Source of the DNA: Candidatus Brocadia sp.
GTDB taxonomy: Bacteria; Planctomycetota; Brocadiia; Brocadiales; Brocadiaceae
DNA: 36,321 bases
Assembly (NCBI GenBank): GCA_011525665.1
Contig: WYAU01000108.1
Span: forward strand, 1 to 36,321
Direction of reading: 5' to 3'
In this document: piece by piece, positions 27,374 through 35,649 of the stretch
Numbering within the stretch: the stretch's first letter is position 1
How the letters are laid out: every line of letters begins with the position of its first letter
The notes under the pieces: generated by a model
Database searches by the model: none
What the model was told of the DNA's origin: nothing
What the model saw: only the letters and a program-made list of their open reading frames with translations
Position numbers and translations under genes: made by a program

Positions 27374-29503
27374 CTAATGTTTCAGCGAAAGGGAAATTCT
27401 CCTCCTTTTGATGTCCACGTCCAGTACGGTAACATTTACCCTTTGATGAATCTTAATCACATCATTGGGGTTTTTTACAAAGCGATCCGAAAGCTGGCTT
27501 ATATGTAACAGCCCGTCCTGGTGAACCCCTATATCAACAAAGGCGCCGAATGCAGTTATGTTGGTTACGACCCCCGGGAGTTTCATACCGGGCTGAATAT
27601 CCTCAATCTTTTCGATCCCTTTGAGAAAGCCAAACGGTTCGAACTTCTCTCGCGGGTCTCGTCCGGGTTTGGCCAATTCCTTCATGATGTCATGTAACGT
27701 AGGCAACCCTACCGTATCTTTTACATATTTTGCAGGGTCTATTTTGCTCCGGAGATTTTCATCCCTCATCAAATCCGATATTGAACATCGAATGTCTTTT
27801 GCCATGGCATCCACAATGTGATAACTTTCAGGATGAACGGCGCTCCGATCAAGGGGATTTTCTCCGTCCCCGATGCGCAGAAAACCCGCTGCCTGTTCAA
27901 ATGCCCTTGGCCCCAGTTTATTTACCTTTTTCAACTCCTCCCGGGATCGAAAAGGGCCATGTTCATTTCGATATTCAATGATATTTTTGGCAAGTTGGGG
28001 GCCTAATCCGGAGACATACATGAGCAGTTGCTTGCTGGCGGTGTTGACTTCAACACCAACAAGATTCACGCAACTGGTAACGACATCATCGAGACTACGC
28101 TTCAGTATTCCCTGATCCACATCATGCTGATATTGTCCCACACCAATAGACTTCGGGTCTATCTTTACCAGTTCTGCCAGGGGATCCATAAGCCGTCTCC
28201 CGATAGATACCGCTCCGCGCACCGTTATGTCCTGGTCGGGAAATTCTTCACGGGCAACGTCTGAAGCGGAATAAACGGACGCCCCGCTTTCATTCACCAT
28301 CACGATCTGAATCTTTTCCGGGAGATCGAGATTTCTCATGAACGACTCGGTTTCCCTTCCTGCGGTGCCGTTCCCTATTGCAACGACCTCTACCTCGAAT
28401 TTTTTACAGAGATTTATAATCCTTGCAGCAGCTTCAGATGCGCCCGCCTCAGACTGATGAGGATAGATGGTATCGGTATGGATCAATTTTCCCTGTCTGT
28501 CCATACAGACCACCTTGCATCCCGTGCGAAAACCGGGATCGATGGCAAGGACGTTTTTTTGGCCCAGTGGCGGGGCAAGCAAAAGCTGCCGGAGATTTTC
28601 TGCAAAGACTTTTATTGCCTCTTCGTCCGCTCTTTTCTTTGTATCCAGACGTATCTCGGTTTCCATTGATATGGACAGGAGTCTTTTGTAACAGTCATGC
28701 ACCGACATCTTGACTTGCAGGGAGGCGCCCCCGTTCCCCTTTACAAACAGCGCTTCCAGTATGGCAAGGGCATTTTCTTCAGGAGGTGTTACCCGCAGGC
28801 TCAGGAACCCCTCCTTTTCTCCGCGTCTCATCGCTAAAATTCTGTGGGACGGGGCAGTCGATACCGGCTCTTCCCAATCAAAATAATCCTTATACTTGAT
28901 CCCTTCCTCTTCTTTGCCGGAAATTATCTTTGTCCTGAAGGCGCCTTGTGTCAGAAAAAGTTCGCGGATCTTTGACCGGGCATGTTGATCTTCATTGACC
29001 CATTCAGCAATAATATCCCGGCCCCCCCCCAGCGCGTCCTCAGCGGAATTAACACCCTTTTCCGCATCCACAAAGGCCTCCGCCACGGCGAAAGGGTCAA
29101 TATCCTCCTGTGCGAAGATACGGTGAGCCAGTTGTTCCAGGCCCTTTTCTCTGGCAATAGTTGCCCGGGTACGGCGTTTGGGACGATAGGGCAGATAAAT
29201 ATCCTCCAGCACTGACATGGTCGCTGCTGCAAGGATTTTCTCCTTGAGTTCTCCGGTGAGTTGTCCCCTCTCTTCCAGCGATTTCAGAATGGCTTCACGA
29301 CGCTTATCCAGTTCCCTGAGCTGGTCGAGACGGTCACGAATTGTCGTAATGGCTATCTCATCCAGGGACCCGGTAGCCTCCTTCCTGTACCGTGCGATAA
29401 AGGGAACTGTAGCGCCTTCTTCAAGAAGCGCGGCGGTTCCCATCACCTGTTTTGCCGTAAGACTGAGTTCTCCGGCAATCTGAGAAATGTATTCATTGTT
29501 CAT
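27374..29503 (-). CDS. tex: Tex family RNA-binding transcription accessory protein
   Basis: 709 residues, normal Tex length. N-terminal helical Tex domain (ATVPFIARYRKEATGSLDE), a YqgF/RNase H-like domain (NVLAIDPGFRTGCKVV), helix-hairpin-helix motifs (LGPQLAKNIIEYRNEHGPF), and a C-terminal S1 RNA-binding domain (GAFVDIGVHQDGLLHIS). The family binds RNA and affects transcription or virulence gene expression. AAAGGATTATT precedes ATG 29503. Monocistronic and divergent from the riboswitch locus. Confidence 0.95.
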   Translation of the reverse strand: MNNEYISQIAGELSLTAKQVMGTAALLEEGATVPFIARYRKEATGSLDEIAITTIRDRLDQLRELDKRREAILKSLEERGQLTGELKEKILAAATMSVLEDIYLPYRPKRRTRATIAREKGLEQLAHRIFAQEDIDPFAVAEAFVDAEKGVNSAEDALGGGRDIIAEWVNEDQHARSKIRELFLTQGAFRTKIISGKEEEGIKYKDYFDWEEPVSTAPSHRILAMRRGEKEGFLSLRVTPPEENALAILEALFVKGNGGASLQVKMSVHDCYKRLLSISMETEIRLDTKKRADEEAIKVFAENLRQLLLAPPLGQKNVLAIDPGFRTGCKVVCMDRQGKLIHTDTIYPHQSEAGASEAAARIINLCKKFEVEVVAIGNGTAGRETESFMRNLDLPEKIQIVMVNESGASVYSASDVAREEFPDQDITVRGAVSIGRRLMDPLAELVKIDPKSIGVGQYQHDVDQGILKRSLDDVVTSCVNLVGVEVNTASKQLLMYVSGLGPQLAKNIIEYRNEHGPFRSREELKKVNKLGPRAFEQAAGFLRIGDGENPLDRSAVHPESYHIVDAMAKDIRCSISDLMRDENLRSKIDPAKYVKDTVGLPTLHDIMKELAKPGRDPREKFEPFGFLKGIEKIEDIQPGMKLPGVVTNITAFGAFVDIGVHQDGLLHISQLSDRFVKNPNDVIKIHQRVNVTVLDVDIKRRRISLSLKH

Positions 29504-29768: not shown

Positions 29769-29797
29769 TTGACAAAAAAGTGAACACGTAGTATATT
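29769..29797 (+). promoter_or_regulatory. Near-perfect sigma-70 promoter of the fluoride-riboswitch locus
   Basis: TTGACA (29769-29774), exactly 17 nt, TATATT (29792-29797). Transcription would start near 29804, about 15 nt before the aptamer. The strongest consensus promoter I see in the window, consistent with constitutive initiation and control by termination. Confidence 0.88.
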
Positions 29798-29819
29798 TAT
29801 ACCCATAGTTTTGAATTCA

Positions 29820-29863
29820 GGCGATGGAGTTCGCCCAATTGCTATGTGATAGCTGATAACTCC
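29820..29863 (+). ncRNA. Fluoride riboswitch aptamer (crcB motif), copy 1
   Basis: The order and conserved letters match the crcB aptamer. GGCG (29820-29823) pairs with CGCC (29832-29835) around AUG-GAGUU. A linker leads to the second hairpin GCTAT/ATAGC (29841-29853), then TGAT and AACTCC (29858-29863), which pairs exactly with GGAGTT (29826-29831) to form the pseudoknot. The same layout is found in the Thermotoga petrophila aptamer. The pseudoknot strand is also the left arm of terminator 1, as in known fluoride ON switches: fluoride stabilises the pseudoknot and prevents termination. It controls the 66-codon gene and the dynamin-like GTPase gene. Confidence 0.93.
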
Positions 29864-29896
29864 TATTGAAGGCAGATACTTCGATAGGAGTTTTTC
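29859..29896 (+). terminator. Riboswitch terminator 1, copy 1
   Basis: ACTCCTATTGAAG (29859-29871) pairs with CTTCGATAGGAGT (29879-29891), 7-nt loop, then TTTTTC. Its left arm shares ACTCC with the aptamer pseudoknot, so it can form only when the aptamer is not fluoride-bound. Confidence 0.92.
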
Positions 29897-29905
29897 TATT
29901 TGTAA

Positions 29906-29943
29906 AACCCCTGTCGAAGCTGCGGTCTCGACAGGGGTTTTTT
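29906..29943 (+). terminator. Second terminator in series, copy 1
   Basis: AACCCCTGTCGA (29906-29917) pairs perfectly with TCGACAGGGGTT (29928-29939) and runs into a T6 run. It stands alone as a strong terminator. Its left arm (29908-29919) can instead pair with the right arm of terminator 1 (29879-29890): ten consecutive pairs including one G-U. Confidence 0.88.
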
Positions 29944-30000
29944 GTTATACCGTTATACAGCGTAAAATAAATCCCTGTCCGAAATTCATAGGAGGGATTT

Positions 30001-30201
30001 ATGGAAAAGATTATTGGTATTAAGGATCTCCAAGATGCTGGTTTGTTGGGCGTTGAATATACGGAGTCAGATTTGTGTGATGCCTTTTTGATGTACTGGA
30101 TTTCCAATAATAAGTTAAATAAAGACCAGGTTGTTTTGCGTGACGGTGACTTTATGCTTGATATCCGCAGTTATTTTGAGTCGTGTAATTGGATGGTTTA
30201 A
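30001..30201 (+). CDS. 66-residue hypothetical protein, first gene under the fluoride riboswitch
   Basis: MEKIIGIKDLQDAGL to the end, 66 residues, acidic, no membrane segment or cysteine pair. A strong ribosome binding site (AGGAGG) lies 6 nt before ATG 30001. It lies 57 nt after terminator 2 and 106 nt before the GTPase gene, so it is the first product of the fluoride-controlled transcript. I recognise no family. Its opening MEKIIGI resembles the opening MERIIEI of the partial GTPase copy at 32381, evidence that the same segment was duplicated. Confidence 0.7.
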   Translation: MEKIIGIKDLQDAGLLGVEYTESDLCDAFLMYWISNNKLNKDQVVLRDGDFMLDIRSYFESCNWMV

Positions 30202-30307
30202 GCAGTAAAGTGTAAAAATCATATAGAGAAAGGCAGAAGGTGGACAATAAATTTTCCAGACTTGAAAGATATTACACTCGATGCTTTTATTTTTGTGGAG
30301 GTGTTCC

Positions 30308-32110
30308 ATGTTAGAAGAATTTATAAGGCATAAAACAGAAATACTGGCCATTATCGAAAATGTCGAGACCCTGACAAAGGATGACATGGCAGCCGTGGAT
30401 AATCGGTTGCTCACGGTCAAGGAACAGTTGATAGCAAATTGTTTCAATCTGGTGATTTTAGGACAATTTAAAAGAGGTAAGACAACCCTCATTAATAGCC
30501 TGATCGGCAAGGAAATACTCCCTTCTTCCGTAGTACCACTGACGTCTATTGTGACAATCCTGAGGTATGGAGAAGAGGTTAGCTGTTTGATCTCTATGGA
30601 GGACGGCAGTGAAAAAAAGATTTACATAGAGGAACTTCCTGATTATGTAACGGAGAAGGGGAATCCCAAAAATATACGGGGCGTACGATGCGCACGCATC
30701 GGGTATCCATCCCCTTTCCTTGAAAAAGGGATACTGCTGGTAGACACGCCGGGAGTGGGGTCCACCTTCCTGCACAATACAGAAACGACCTATGAATTTT
30801 TAGACCACCTGGATGCTGCATTGTTCCTCATGAGCGCCGACGTCCCCATCTCACAGGTGGAAAAGGAACTCCTCGATACCATCAAGGGCTCTACCCAGAA
30901 GATATTTTTTGTGTTGAACAAGATCGATAATCTGACCCTGAAAGAGATTGAAGAAATAGCCGCCTTCAACAGACAGGTGTTGGAGGAGATGGGGTTTACC
31001 GTTCAGGAAATCTGGCCTGTCTCTGCCAGGGAAGCACTAAAGGCAAAAACAACGAACAATGACCTTCAACTTTCACAGAGTGGCCTTTTGACCCTGGAAG
31101 ATGCATTAGGGAGTTTTCTCTCTTTAGAAAAAGGAAAAATCGTCCTCAATACCACCATATCCAAGACAAAGCGGGTCATCTCCCGGATGCTCTCCCAGAT
31201 AACCATTGAGAAAAAGACCATGGAAGCCTCCGGGGAAGAGTTAGAAGACAAGATTAACACCTTTCATCAGCTTGTAGCGAACCTGAAGCAGGACAGAGAA
31301 GACATGAAATGTCTCCTCAAGGGCGAATCAGACAAGCTGTGTTTTAAGGTGGAAGAGATGTTAAAGATTTTGGAAGAAAAGGAGATACCGAGAGTAAAGC
31401 AGTGCCTTACGGATTTCTATGGAAAAAATCCCGATCTCAATCCCACCGTCTTAAGGGACGGAATGCAAAAGGTTATCAAGGATGAGATCGTTAAAGGATT
31501 CGATGCATTCAGAAAGGATGCCGAGAAGGTAATCTCAAATACACTCCAGGAAACCTTTAATCGTTTTACAAGACGTTCCAACAATATCATCACCGAGTTT
31601 AAAACAGCTGCCGAGATACTCTTTGAGGTATCCATGGAACAATGTGAATTTTCCGTTGAACTGGCCAGGGATACCGGTTTTTATTACATGGTTCAGGAAT
31701 ATACCGCCCCCACCGAAGAAGAGGTCAAGTCCATCCTGCGCACCTTCCTGCCGAAATCCATGAGCAGTAAGATGGTCTTGAACGAGATGCTGGAACGGGT
31801 CTCCTCCGATGTGGGCAGGAATTGCGGCAGGATACGTTCTGACCTCACAGCAAGGATCAGCAAAACCATCGGCCATTACTCCAAACAGATGAAAGATCTC
31901 GGGAGCGATCTTATTGCCCAGATAGAACAGGCCATACAAAAGGGACAGGAAAGACGAAGGGCGGGTAGCGAGTCGGTACGGCTTGAACTGGAATTATTAG
32001 CAAACAAGACGAAAACCCTGGAAGAGTACAAAGAAAATCTGGAGAAGGTATGGAATGCGGTAAATCTCATAGATATAAAACCAGAACGAATAAAGATGGC
32101 AATGATGTAA
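30308..32110 (+). CDS. Bacterial dynamin-like GTPase
   Basis: About 600 residues from ATG 30308, chosen because GGAGG lies 7-11 nt upstream (the open frame begins at 30281). GTPase domain: P-loop GQFKRGKTTL (about residues 52-61), switch threonine in VPLTSIVT, G3 LLVDTPGVGS, G4 VLNKIDNL. The remaining ~350 residues are predicted long helices with coiled-coil character (KKTMEASGEELEDKINTF and others), the stalk/effector part of dynamin-family proteins. No clear transmembrane helix. Dynamin-like proteins self-assemble on membranes to remodel, fuse or protect them. Here the gene lies under a fluoride riboswitch with two terminators, so I infer expression under fluoride stress. The exact subfamily cannot be read. 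Confidence 0.9.
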   Translation: MLEEFIRHKTEILAIIENVETLTKDDMAAVDNRLLTVKEQLIANCFNLVILGQFKRGKTTLINSLIGKEILPSSVVPLTSIVTILRYGEEVSCLISMEDGSEKKIYIEELPDYVTEKGNPKNIRGVRCARIGYPSPFLEKGILLVDTPGVGSTFLHNTETTYEFLDHLDAALFLMSADVPISQVEKELLDTIKGSTQKIFFVLNKIDNLTLKEIEEIAAFNRQVLEEMGFTVQEIWPVSAREALKAKTTNNDLQLSQSGLLTLEDALGSFLSLEKGKIVLNTTISKTKRVISRMLSQITIEKKTMEASGEELEDKINTFHQLVANLKQDREDMKCLLKGESDKLCFKVEEMLKILEEKEIPRVKQCLTDFYGKNPDLNPTVLRDGMQKVIKDEIVKGFDAFRKDAEKVISNTLQETFNRFTRRSNNIITEFKTAAEILFEVSMEQCEFSVELARDTGFYYMVQEYTAPTEEEVKSILRTFLPKSMSSKMVLNEMLERVSSDVGRNCGRIRSDLTARISKTIGHYSKQMKDLGSDLIAQIEQAIQKGQERRRAGSESVRLELELLANKTKTLEEYKENLEKVWNAVNLIDIKPERIKMAMM

Positions 32111-32185
32111 GTAAAATCGAGCATCAAATTAGAGCATGGATTCTCATAATGTAAGTAAATAAACATTTTTTTCTATTTTTATTCC

Positions 32186-32229
32186 GGCGATGGAGTTCGC
32201 CAAACTGCTACATTGTAGCTGATAACTCC
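32186..32229 (+). ncRNA. Fluoride riboswitch aptamer (crcB motif), copy 2
   Basis: GGCG (32186-32189) pairs with CGCC (32198-32201), then AAACT, hairpin GCTAC/GTAGC (32207-32219), TGAT, and AACTCC (32224-32229) pairing with GGAGTT (32192-32197). The second hairpin differs from copy 1 yet still pairs, supporting the structure. No consensus promoter is evident just upstream, so it may be transcribed by read-through from the GTPase gene 75 nt before it. Confidence 0.92.
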
Positions 32230-32262
32230 TGTTGAAGTTGAGCTTCGATAGGAGTTTTTTTT
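32225..32262 (+). terminator. Riboswitch terminator 1, copy 2
   Basis: ACTCCTGTTGAAG (32225-32237) pairs with CTTCGATAGGAGT (32243-32255), 5-nt loop, then a T8 run. Same overlap with the pseudoknot strand as in copy 1. Confidence 0.9.
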
Positions 32263-32269
32263 ATTGAGC

Positions 32270-32306
32270 CCCCTATCGAAGCCGTGGTTTCGATAGGGGT
32301 TTTTTT
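32270..32306 (+). terminator. Second terminator in series, copy 2
   Basis: CCCCTATCGAA (32270-32280) pairs with TTCGATAGGGG (32289-32299), then T7. Compared with copy 1 the stem has a paired change (G-C becomes A-T), so both sides changed together. Right arm of terminator 1 (32243-32252) and left arm of terminator 2 (32272-32281) are perfectly complementary over 10 bp. Confidence 0.88.
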
Positions 32307-32380
32307 GTTTTATCGTTCATCTTCAATTTGGAAATGTAGCTTGCAAAAACAGCACCTTGTTTGATTTACAGGAGGTACGA

Positions 32381-33187
32381 ATGGAAAGAATTATTGAAAT
32401 TGTTGAGAAAAAGACCTTAGAAATTTCCCGAAAAGATTTGGAGGATAGGATAAACACATTTTATCATCTCGCTGCAAACCTGAAACAAGGTAGAGAGGAT
32501 ATTACGTATCTGCTCGAAGAAGAATTGAACACGTTGTGTCTGAAGGCGGGTGAGATGATAAAAATTTTTGAAGAAAAAGAGATATCCAGAATAGGGAAGT
32601 GTCTCCATGATGTTTTTAAAGAGGATGCGGATACCAATCCGACGGTTTTGAGAGATAAGTTACAGAAAGTTATCGAGAAAGAAATCGTCAAAGGATTTGA
32701 TATGTTTAAACAGGATACACAAAAAGTAATCTCAAATAATACCGGGGGGGCTATTAACCGTTTTCTGAGGTGTTTCACCGATAATATCTGTGAGTTTAAA
32801 ACGGCCGTAGAGATCCTCTTTGAGGTACCTATGGGCCAGTTTGAATATTTCGTGAAACCGACCAGAAAAACTAGTTTTTCTGGCATGGCTCATGAGTATT
32901 CGGTTGCACCTGATGGAGAGTTCAAGTTCGTTTTACGCGCCTCTCTTCCAAAGTCGATCAGCATGAAGCTGGTTTTATATGAAATGATAGATAGGATGAC
33001 CTCTGATGTAAATCGGAATTGCAAAGGGATACCGACGTTGAAAGAATTGTTGATACTATCATCAACGAATCCAAAACGGGGAGCATTGGCGATGGAAAGA
33101 TATTTGTTTTTGATGTGGAAAAGGCCTATCGTATTCGTACAAATGAGTCCGGCGAGGCTGCAATTTAAATTGTTTGATGCAATTTAG
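32381..33187 (+). CDS. Headless dynamin-like fragment, chimeric, probably a pseudogene
   Basis: About 268 codons from ATG 32381, with GGAGG upstream. It begins [14 protein letters not shown]: the opening resembles the 66-residue protein, then from EKKT onward it follows the GTPase's helical region ([20 protein letters not shown] against NTFHQLVANLKQDREDMKCL; ILFEVPM against ILFEVSM; SLPKSIS against FLPKSMS). The whole GTPase domain is absent. Similarity ends at SDVNRNC; from about 33030 the sequence is the 3' end of a PII gene read in the wrong frame, so the last ~50 residues are accidental. It cannot bind GTP; it might still bind the parent protein if expressed (inference). Preceded by its own riboswitch copy. 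Confidence 0.75.
33034..33168 (+). pseudogene. 3' fragment of a PII nitrogen-regulator gene (glnB/glnK type)
   Basis: In the frame starting at 33034 the sequence reads DVERIVDTI, then [30 protein letters not shown] and a TAA at 33166-33168. TG-x-IGDGKIFV and RIRT-x-E-x-G are the PII C-terminal signature. The N-terminal two thirds, including the T-loop, are missing and replaced by the GTPase fragment in another frame. No start codon or ribosome binding site serves this frame, so it is a remnant. Confidence 0.85.
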
Positions 33188-33808: not shown

Positions 33809-34723
33809 ATGTCTGCTGAAGGGAATGAAGGTGCAAACAATCAGGAATATACTGCACCAGTTATTGAGATTGATACCTACGAACCGTCTGAAATGACTGA
33901 TCGGGTAGGACGGGTGAGCATTTCAAAAACAGACCTTGGTACTTTAACGATGCTTGGCCTCAGTATCCTCGCCGGAGTCTTCATTTCACTTGGAGCACAG
34001 CTCTCCATCCTGGTAACACATACAGCTACCTCAAGTTATGGTTTAAATCAACTCATCGGCGGGGTAGCTTTTACCTTGGCGATGATTTTAATCGTAATCA
34101 CCGGCGCCGAACTTTTTGCTGGAAACCCGCTTGTTGCAATGTCTTTTATGGCCAGGAAAATTACTGGCAGAGCCCTTGTCAGAAATCTGATTATTGTACT
34201 TACCGGTAATTTTATTGGTGCATTAACCGTAGTTTTGTGGATATACAATTCTGAGCAATGGATGGTGAACAATTACTTACTTGGCGCCAAAATTGTCCTT
34301 ACCGCAAACGACAAGGTAAACACCTCATTTGGTGCAGCCTTTGCGCGGGGAGTGATTGGCAATGCCCTGATTTGTCTGGGTGTCTGGCTGTGCTATTGTG
34401 GCAGGAGTAATATGGATAAAATATTGGCGTTGCTCTGGCCAACATCCTGTCTCATCGCCTGCGGATTCGAACACTGTGTTGTCAATATGTGGCTTATTCC
34501 CATGGGGCTTATTCTGAAAGGCCACCGTGCAATACTGGCTACCGCTGAAACGGTACATGGCGGAAAGTTAGACCTTTCCAATCTCACCTTTTTTAAAGGC
34601 TTTTTGATAGATAACCTGTGTCCCGTCGTACTTGGAAACTTGTTTGGCTGTATTGTACTGGTTGCAGGTGCGTATTGGTTTGTGTTTTTACGCCTTTCAA
34701 GGAATGATAAAGGAGTTGTGTAA
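33809..34723 (+). CDS. Formate/nitrite transporter (FNT) family channel, copy 1
   Basis: 304 residues. A polar N-terminal extension of ~45 residues, then six membrane helices with FNT motifs: GAELFAGN, TGNFIGAL, ARGVIGNALICLGVWL and the central filter histidine in GFEHCVVNMW. FNT pentamers move small monovalent anions such as formate, nitrite or hydrosulphide. In an anammox-like organism nitrite is the likely cargo (inference). The motif here is ELFAGN, where copy 2 has ELFTGN. Strong ribosome binding site AAAGGAGG. Copy 2 follows after 2 nt, so they are one operon. A TATACT at about 33750 has no clean -35. Confidence 0.92.
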   Translation: MSAEGNEGANNQEYTAPVIEIDTYEPSEMTDRVGRVSISKTDLGTLTMLGLSILAGVFISLGAQLSILVTHTATSSYGLNQLIGGVAFTLAMILIVITGAELFAGNPLVAMSFMARKITGRALVRNLIIVLTGNFIGALTVVLWIYNSEQWMVNNYLLGAKIVLTANDKVNTSFGAAFARGVIGNALICLGVWLCYCGRSNMDKILALLWPTSCLIACGFEHCVVNMWLIPMGLILKGHRAILATAETVHGGKLDLSNLTFFKGFLIDNLCPVVLGNLFGCIVLVAGAYWFVFLRLSRNDKGVV

Positions 34724-34725
34724 AA

Positions 34726-35649
34726 ATGTCAAAAAATAACATCTCAAGACCTGCGAAAGATACAAATACCGATGCATATACGCCCCTGCAGACCGTTGCC
34801 ATAATTGAAAATAAGGCCGTAGTAAGGGCCAGATTGCGGGTTACACAAACTTTTATATTAAGTATGTTAGCCGGAATCTTTGTGGCCATGGGTGCCCAAT
34901 TTGCCACTTTTGTGACCAGCGACTCCGCCCTGCACTTTGGAGTTACCTCCCTTATTACCGGCATTGTGTTCTCTCTTGGACTCATACTGGTTGAAGTTGC
35001 CGGGGCCGAACTTTTTACAGGCAATAACCTCAACATTGTGGGCTATGTCAGCAAAAGGATTACAACGCGTGAGTTAGTTAAGATATGGACTATCGTGTAT
35101 ATTGGTAATTTTATTGGCGGCCTCATGATGGTCTGCTGGATGTATATGGCACACCAGTGGGAATTTTCCCACTATGCTACAGGTGCAAAGGCACTGCTTA
35201 TTACCCACAAAAAGGTGAATCTGTCTTTTAAAGCCGCACTGGTGAGGGGCGTGCTTTGCAACGCACTGGTGTGTCTTAATGTATGGTTATGCTACAGCAG
35301 TAGAAGCGTGGCAGACAAGGTCCTTTCAGTTCTCTTCCCCATTGGTGGTTTTGTTGCCAGCGGGTTTGAACACTGTGTTGCCAACATGTATTTTATTCCC
35401 ACGGGCTTGATGTTACGAAAAAATCAGGACGTCATTGCTGCCGCTGAAAAAATGGCAGGCAAACCATTAGACCTTTCTTTCCTTACATGGAAGGGATTTT
35501 TGGTAAACAACCTCTTCCCCGTTACCATGGGAAATTTCATTGGAGGTGTTATTCTGGTTGGTATCGTGTTCTGGTTTATTTACCTGCGACCACGTATCAG
35601 TTATTTATCACTTGAAATAAAACCAGATTTTCCCCAAGACAAAAAGTAA
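34726..35649 (+). CDS. Formate/nitrite transporter (FNT) family channel, copy 2
   Basis: 307 residues, same architecture as copy 1: polar N-terminal extension, GAELFTGNN, IGNFIGGL, VRGVLCNALVCLNVWL and filter histidine in GFEHCVANMY. Ribosome binding site AAGGAG inside the end of copy 1. The pair diverged throughout, so they are old tandem paralogues and may form mixed or separately tuned channels (inference). Confidence 0.92.
   Translation: MSKNNISRPAKDTNTDAYTPLQTVAIIENKAVVRARLRVTQTFILSMLAGIFVAMGAQFATFVTSDSALHFGVTSLITGIVFSLGLILVEVAGAELFTGNNLNIVGYVSKRITTRELVKIWTIVYIGNFIGGLMMVCWMYMAHQWEFSHYATGAKALLITHKKVNLSFKAALVRGVLCNALVCLNVWLCYSSRSVADKVLSVLFPIGGFVASGFEHCVANMYFIPTGLMLRKNQDVIAAAEKMAGKPLDLSFLTWKGFLVNNLFPVTMGNFIGGVILVGIVFWFIYLRPRISYLSLEIKPDFPQDKK

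Follow-up and report, generated by a model that had tools for sequence, protein, structure and literature searches.

How a gene could be switched on by fluoride when two terminators stand in series between the riboswitch and the start codon is the question raised by a locus in the Brocadiaceae, since a single terminator overlapping the aptamer is the textbook layout of fluoride riboswitches (PMC11077080). The window analysed here is a whole contig (C109) of 36,321 nucleotides from the 3.63 Mb genome of a Brocadia-group anammox bacterium of that family. Only two fluoride riboswitches scored above threshold in an Rfam scan of the window, copy A (29811-29872) and copy B (32177-32238), and two is also the total for the genome. 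A match to the PyrR binding site (RF00515) was sub-threshold, with 26.8 bits against a gathering score of 54, and was rejected. The same riboswitch element is found in Ca. Brocadia pituitae, Ca. B. sapporoensis, Ca. Kuenenia hertensis and Ca. Loosdrechtia aerotolerans. Both copies presumably bind fluoride. The strands whose alternative pairing is at issue are numbered 1 to 5 in order of transcription, and their positions are collected together with those of the surrounding genes in Table 1.

Table 1. Positions in the window of the two fluoride riboswitches, their pairing strands and the neighbouring genes.
Feature	Positions	Strand	Basis or remark
Sigma70-like promoter of copy A, TTGACA-17-TATATT	29769-29797	+	agrees with the consensus at 11 of 12 positions; best in the region
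Fluoride riboswitch aptamer, copy A	29811-29872	+	RF01734, 45.7 bits (gathering score 34)
Strand 1, left arm of T1	29858-29871	+	its ACUCC doubles as the pseudoknot 3' half
Strand 2, right arm of T1 and start of U tract	29879-29894	+	alternative partner of strand 3
T1 U tract	29890-29899	+	terminator scan
Strand 3, left arm of T2 (29904-29917) with A29918 and G29919	29904-29919	+	fold, alignment
Strand 4, right arm of T2	29928-29941	+	MFE fold
T2 U tract, TTTTTT	29938-29943	+	sequence
Strand 5, UCCCUGUC	29972-29979	+	complementary to GACAGGGG of strand 4 (29930-29937)
Shine-Dalgarno AGGAGGG of the 66-aa ORF	29990-29996	+	sequence
66-aa ORF, first gene of copy A	30001-30201	+	beginning conserved in relatives
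Dynamin-like GTPase (Dynamin_N), regulated gene	30281-32110	+	PF00350, E 6.5e-27
Fluoride riboswitch aptamer, copy B, within the gene string	32177-32238	+	RF01734, 49.1 bits (gathering score 34)
T1 of copy B	32224-32256	+	terminator analysis
T2 of copy B	32270-32299	+	left arm complementary to 32243-32254; same arrangement in copy A
GTPase-less paralogue of the C-terminal part of the GTPase	32357-33187	+	55% identity over 210 aa
Two formate/nitrite-transporter (FNT) genes, downstream of copy B	33809-35649	+	PF01226

The aptamer of copy A consists of P1 (29820-29823 with 29832-29835), P3 (29841-29845 with 29849-29853) and a pseudoknot that joins GGAGU (29826-29830) to ACUCC (29859-29863), according to the sequence and the Rfam alignment. 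This ACUCC lies inside the left arm of the first terminator, T1, whose stem of 14 pairs (29858-29871 with 29879-29892) is followed by TTTTTCTATT. The second terminator, T2, pairs 29904-29917 with 29928-29941 in the minimum free energy fold and ends in a TTTTTT tail; it is absent from the promoter and terminator scan because its loop measures 10 nt and the maximum allowed in the scan was 8. A U tract stands behind both hairpins in copy B as in copy A, and the segment 29800-29950 of copy A folds with a z score of -7.4. That T2 might serve a convergent gene was rejected, as there is none there: the neighbour, Tex, is on the minus strand with its start at 29503 and is directed away.

The right arm of T1 has a second possible partner in the left arm of T2. 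In this 2:3 helix CTTCGATAGG (29879-29888) pairs with CCTGTCGAAG (29910-29919) over 10 contiguous positions, one U.G included, and beyond a single A.C mismatch 29890-29894 forms 5 further pairs with 29904-29908, which brings the total to 15 of 16. Two bases of strand 3, A29918 and G29919, pair with strand 2 in this helix and neither has a Watson-Crick partner in T2. The first-pass annotation had recognized the two terminators in series and had counted 10 contiguous pairs between them; both observations hold, the latter being too low a figure for the helix as a whole. When the composition of strand 3 was shuffled, a run of 10 recurred in 3 of 20,000 cases, and none of 4,000 shuffles matched the duplex energy of -18.0 kcal/mol. 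A chance match is ruled out by these shuffles, by the z score of the fold and by the covariation described below, and the arrangement is not the accident of one sequence, because it is conserved across the Brocadiaceae.

Of the 33 Brocadiaceae genomes surveyed, 23 contained aptamers over or near threshold, 41 in all, which often came in groups of two or three spanning a few kb. Each aptamer was inspected, with the register of strand 3 anchored on CCCC, and 34 of the 41 have T1, T2 and the 2:3 complementarity. Two copies, both from clusters, have T1 only (G004:1082359 and G008:319681), so that T2 is dispensable in them, and two others are degenerate (G022:2899585 and G002:176724). In G008:C1:319681 the left arm of T1 seems to be joined to the right arm of T2, a natural one-terminator variant. 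The remaining three (G018:C24:44753, G019:C7:45241 and G022:C1:2899462) have no terminator, and the CUCC of their pseudoknot lies opposite a GGAG ribosome site, which suggests that translational control operates within the same gene clusters. The distance from the T2 tail to the start codon is 19 nt in G003 and about 25-45 nt in G012, G014, G021 and G022; in several copies T2 is thus too near the start codon for an intervening promoter, and expression must therefore traverse T2.

The tandem layout is not a common trait of fluoride riboswitches in the phylum, as none of the 33 aptamers examined from other Planctomycetota combines a U-tailed T1 with T2. Outside the family, the Scalindua-like G330 and G331b have a single T1 followed by the same GTPase gene, and G065 (L087), G193 (L089) and G331a (L109) have a three-strand layout in which the 1:2 hairpin has no U tract, 2:3 is the alternative and 3:4 is the sole terminator. 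The Brocadiaceae form looks like a fusion of these two layouts. When 84,980 genomes were scanned for the pattern, 18 of the matching stretches came from Brocadiaceae, and the other 22 had no aptamer motif upstream.

The fate of the competing helices during transcription was simulated using ViennaRNA energies, direct-path barriers and a master equation for each added nucleotide; as a stand-in for the ligand, ACUCC (29859-29863) was made unavailable, and the model leaves out the footprint of RNA polymerase, the folding and competition of the aptamer, and Mg2+. In the simulated apo state copy A formed T1 and then T2. In the holo state a remnant of T1 with 8 bp, UAUUGAAG/CUUCGAUA, formed first and was displaced by strand 3 starting at the free GGAGUUUU end, after which 2:3 lasted throughout and T2 was absent. 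Among the 34 simulated copies T2 formed in 33 in the apo state, and in the holo state T2 was below 0.1 in 29 and 2:3 above 0.9 in 29, while T2 persisted in four (G003, G023, G015 and G022:2901692). Breaking 2:3 in copy A and keeping both terminators intact brought holo T2 to 1.00, and compensating strands 3 and 4 returned it to 0.00. The outcome was robust over 0.005-0.5 s per nucleotide, over k0 from 2e4 to 2e6 and with a 5-s pause at the T2 tail.

These runs bear directly on the first-pass annotation, which had proposed that one ligand event opens both terminators through 2:3, by a trp-type logic of 1:2 and 3:4 against 2:3 gated by the pseudoknot, and had named a co-transcriptional folding simulation and mutants among the means of checking it. 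The pairings of this scheme are present in copy A and in its relatives, in which the structural steps also hold; the predicted logic was reproduced by the simulation, and the mutants, run in silico, behaved as foreseen. 2:3 excludes 3:4 and is conserved, as seen from the simulations and the alignment.

With ligand the energy minimum of the model is T2 together with the 8-bp remnant of T1, at -33.7 kcal/mol, against -26.4 kcal/mol for the 2:3 state, and a barrier of 13.8 kcal/mol lies between them. In the model, 2:3 is a kinetic trap and not the thermodynamic winner, T2 being favoured at equilibrium even with ligand. It prevails because it is formed first and because strand 4 has to invade from the unfavourable end, at which T2 is weakest (A.C, G.U) and 2:3 strongest (CUUC/GAAG).

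We consider it likely that the element is a fluoride-ON riboswitch that acts on transcription through a double lock, in which one binding event opens T1 and T2 by way of 2:3. This reading draws on the aptamer and both terminators, on the conserved and covarying cross-pairing, and on its behaviour in the simulation. Without fluoride, strands 1 and 2 would form T1, and polymerases slipping past it would meet T2, free to fold because strand 2 is already engaged. In fluoride, ACUCC would remain in the locked pseudoknot and T1 would be reduced to the 8-bp remnant, which would be too distant from the U tract for termination and would leave the GGAGUUUU part of strand 2 free. Strand 3, on emerging, would be caught by this free end and zip into 2:3 before strand 4 exists, and strand 4, finding no free partner, would not form T2 in time. 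The model has to rest on kinetics because T2 is thermodynamically favoured in the ligand-bound state. Termination at both sites, and antitermination in response to fluoride, would be expected in cells, and a very low leak in the OFF state, as predicted by the first-pass annotation, is plausible.

Across 33 aligned copies the 2:3 helix is paired in 89.4% of cells, the fixed A.C mismatch explaining most of the unpaired remainder, and 4 pairs show changes on both sides. The covariation score of 2:3 is 0.179 and that of slid controls at most 0.066, with T1 at 0.173 and T2 at 0.191, where the shuffle counts ignore phylogeny. Strands 1 to 4 form a chain, and therefore T1 and T2 could drag along some 2:3 complementarity; the two stems are also alike, so part of that complementarity is expected from a duplicated terminator. 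This leads to the alternative that T2 is a ligand-blind, fail-safe duplicate of T1 and that duplication or gene conversion produced the cross-pairing incidentally, which we judge unlikely. Mean identity is 8.5/12 between strands 1 and 3 and 7.4/12 between strands 2 and 4, and the two stems vary together between lineages, as a duplicate would. Gene conversion should however have removed the fixed differences that remain, such as GGAG versus GGGG and the unrelated loops, and with a strong ligand-blind T2 next to the start codon the gene would stay off even in fluoride.

Changes that compensate in 2:3 only are found in two genomes and weigh further against duplication. In G028:C181:2305 a G of strand 2 has become A and a C of strand 3 has become U, strands 1 and 4 being unchanged; 2:3 is thereby kept (G-C to A-U) and the T2 pair weakened (C-G to U.G). 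The last pair in G019 reads G-C in 2:3, as against GxG in T1 and CxU in T2. Moreover, the two loop-side columns of strand 3 (69 and 70) are paired in 2:3 in 33/33 and 29/33 copies, respectively, and are little used by T2, where 12 copies leave column 69 unpaired and column 70 forms G.U in most (26/33); their conservation as partners of strand 2 is not what a mere duplicate would call for. At the level of sequence, G028, G019 and these columns argue against drag from T1 and T2 as the full source of the complementarity. The innermost pair of T1 is lost in four copies (G014, G009, G029:71 and G027:39041), and the corresponding 2:3 pair is retained in them. Duplication would also have to contend with the finding that random T2 stems of the same composition gave 2:3 in just 1 of 16 simulations.

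It is improbable, in our judgement even more so, that T2 is a weak constitutive terminator that caps output and that fluoride works on T1 alone. Such a role would suit the four copies with persisting T2 in the modelled holo state and the loss of T2 from the two clustered copies, and it is opposed by the 12-14 nearly perfect, GC-rich pairs and the six-U tail, which make weakness unlikely, and by the 2:3 covariation, which it leaves unexplained.

The double lock may extend further downstream in copies of the copy A type. A CCCUGUC-like element between T2 and the Shine-Dalgarno site occurs in 15 copies, all of which have a strong AGGAGG site, and it provides strand 5, a complement of strand 4; in copy A the overlapping AAAUCCC (29969-29975) could alternatively pair with GGGAUUU (29994-30000) at the Shine-Dalgarno. 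In the 4:5 helix 95% of cells are paired, against at most 61% when slid, its covariation being within the shuffle range with one double change in one clade, and it beats about 99% of dinucleotide shuffles in 9 of the 15 copies. The matching change on both sides is seen in G018 and G020 (GACAAGGG/CCCTTGTC). Pairing of strand 5 with the Shine-Dalgarno in the 15 copies is no better than in dinucleotide shuffles. Simulations of a few copies were extended to the start codon. In Brocadia-type copies the apo state had T2 formed and the Shine-Dalgarno 0.83-1.0 paired, and the holo state showed 2:3 with mostly 4:5, the Shine-Dalgarno being 0.4-0.6 paired; in the Kuenenia copy its pairing was unchanged (0.48 vs 0.44).

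Strand 5 is probably an extension of the same chain, and its capture of strand 4 is better supported than translational control. In copies of this type the freed strand 4 would probably take strand 5, which may help keep T2 off and may uncover the Shine-Dalgarno. A full domino of six strands, with 1:2, 3:4 and 5:Shine-Dalgarno in the apo state and aptamer:1, 2:3 and 4:5 with a free Shine-Dalgarno in fluoride, is a tentative proposal that we regard as somewhat doubtful. If true, one ion-binding event would be relayed about 140 nt down the nascent RNA to two terminators and a ribosome site. Control that is mainly translational, in which strand 5 covers the Shine-Dalgarno and the role of the upstream hairpins is to present strand 4, could appeal to the two pairings in 15 copies and to the modelled exposure in the Brocadia-type copies, and is nevertheless highly improbable in view of the full U tracts on both upstream hairpins, the lack of strand 5 where the GTPase is the first gene, the shuffle-level pairing at the Shine-Dalgarno and the unchanged exposure in the Kuenenia copy.

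The genes placed under this proposed double lock form a string in the order copy A, 66-aa ORF, dynamin-like GTPase, copy B, GTPase-less paralogue, 123-aa ORF and two FNT channels. The 66-aa ORF has no Pfam or NCBIfam match, and together with its homologues under riboswitches of the copy A type it has the conserved start MEKIIGIKDLQ..GLLG. In 22 of the 23 riboswitch-bearing genomes a fluoride riboswitch is followed closely, on the same strand, by a Dynamin_N gene; the GTPase is the constant gene under Brocadiaceae fluoride riboswitches and occurs also in the Scalindua-like G330 and G331. In G028 the riboswitch C181:2305 is located immediately upstream of an ORF that starts MKKIEAIIRPEKFDMVKDAL and resembles a PII nitrogen-regulatory protein.

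Copy B repeats the layout of copy A, with aptamer, T1, T2 and 2:3 pairing. The stretch between the GTPase gene and copy B yielded no promoter-like site, and copy B therefore probably gates read-through from copy A within the gene string. If so, a transcript that extends to the FNT genes may be under fluoride control at two points and would have to cross four gated terminators. FNT genes are likewise found in or beside fluoride-riboswitch loci in G004, G015, G020, G022, G027, G028 and G029, and it may be speculated that these channels could be exporters of fluoride or HF. CrcB (PF02537) was not found in the 33 Brocadiaceae genomes in a search that gave matches in 10 of 14 control genomes. CLC proteins are present in 22 of the 33, and the single CLC of the present genome sits on a separate contig.

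The crcB/fluoride riboswitch of the Bacillus cereus type (PMC11077080, PMC8752731) belongs to the same aptamer family, and there too the 3' pseudoknot strand doubles as the 5' edge of the terminator; the Brocadiaceae add a second terminator whose left arm is complementary to the right arm of the first. The three-strand riboswitches of G065, G193 and G331a share the 1:2 hairpin, the 2:3 alternative and the 3:4 terminator after the aptamer, and differ in that 1:2 is itself a terminator in the Brocadiaceae. Attenuators of the trp type have the same chain of mutually exclusive pairings with 2:3 as antiterminator; in the Brocadiaceae, however, the gate would be a ligand-locked pseudoknot and not a ribosome, and 1:2 is also a terminator. 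Tandem terminators with a potential antiterminator structure have been described for the rimP-leader of some Gammaproteobacteria (Naville and Gautheret 2010, PMC2965389), which is not a riboswitch, has no known ligand aptamer and, in the part of that account consulted, is not described as controlling both terminators jointly. A 2026 covariation study of whole RF01734 riboswitches (PMC13273304) restricted the post-aptamer sequence of one alignment to 5-40 nt and mentions neither a second terminator, a tandem arrangement nor an antiterminator. In the open-access literature we found no paper on tandem terminators under one fluoride riboswitch and none on fluoride riboswitches in anammox bacteria. 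The aptamer is thus ordinary, and what appears to be new, from sequence comparison and modelling, is the placing of two terminators under one fluoride riboswitch with a shared 2:3 antiterminator.

If the double lock is true, it is a natural riboswitch in which one ligand event acts on two intrinsic terminators through a shared antiterminator, and would offer a ready-made design with low leak. It would also be a clean test of kinetic, non-equilibrium RNA folding, given the prediction that the ON state is the less stable one, and the family itself supplies natural test variants, with and without T2 and with compensated stems. For the anammox bacteria, the loci point to a fluoride response without detectable CrcB that is centred on a dynamin-like GTPase and FNT channels.
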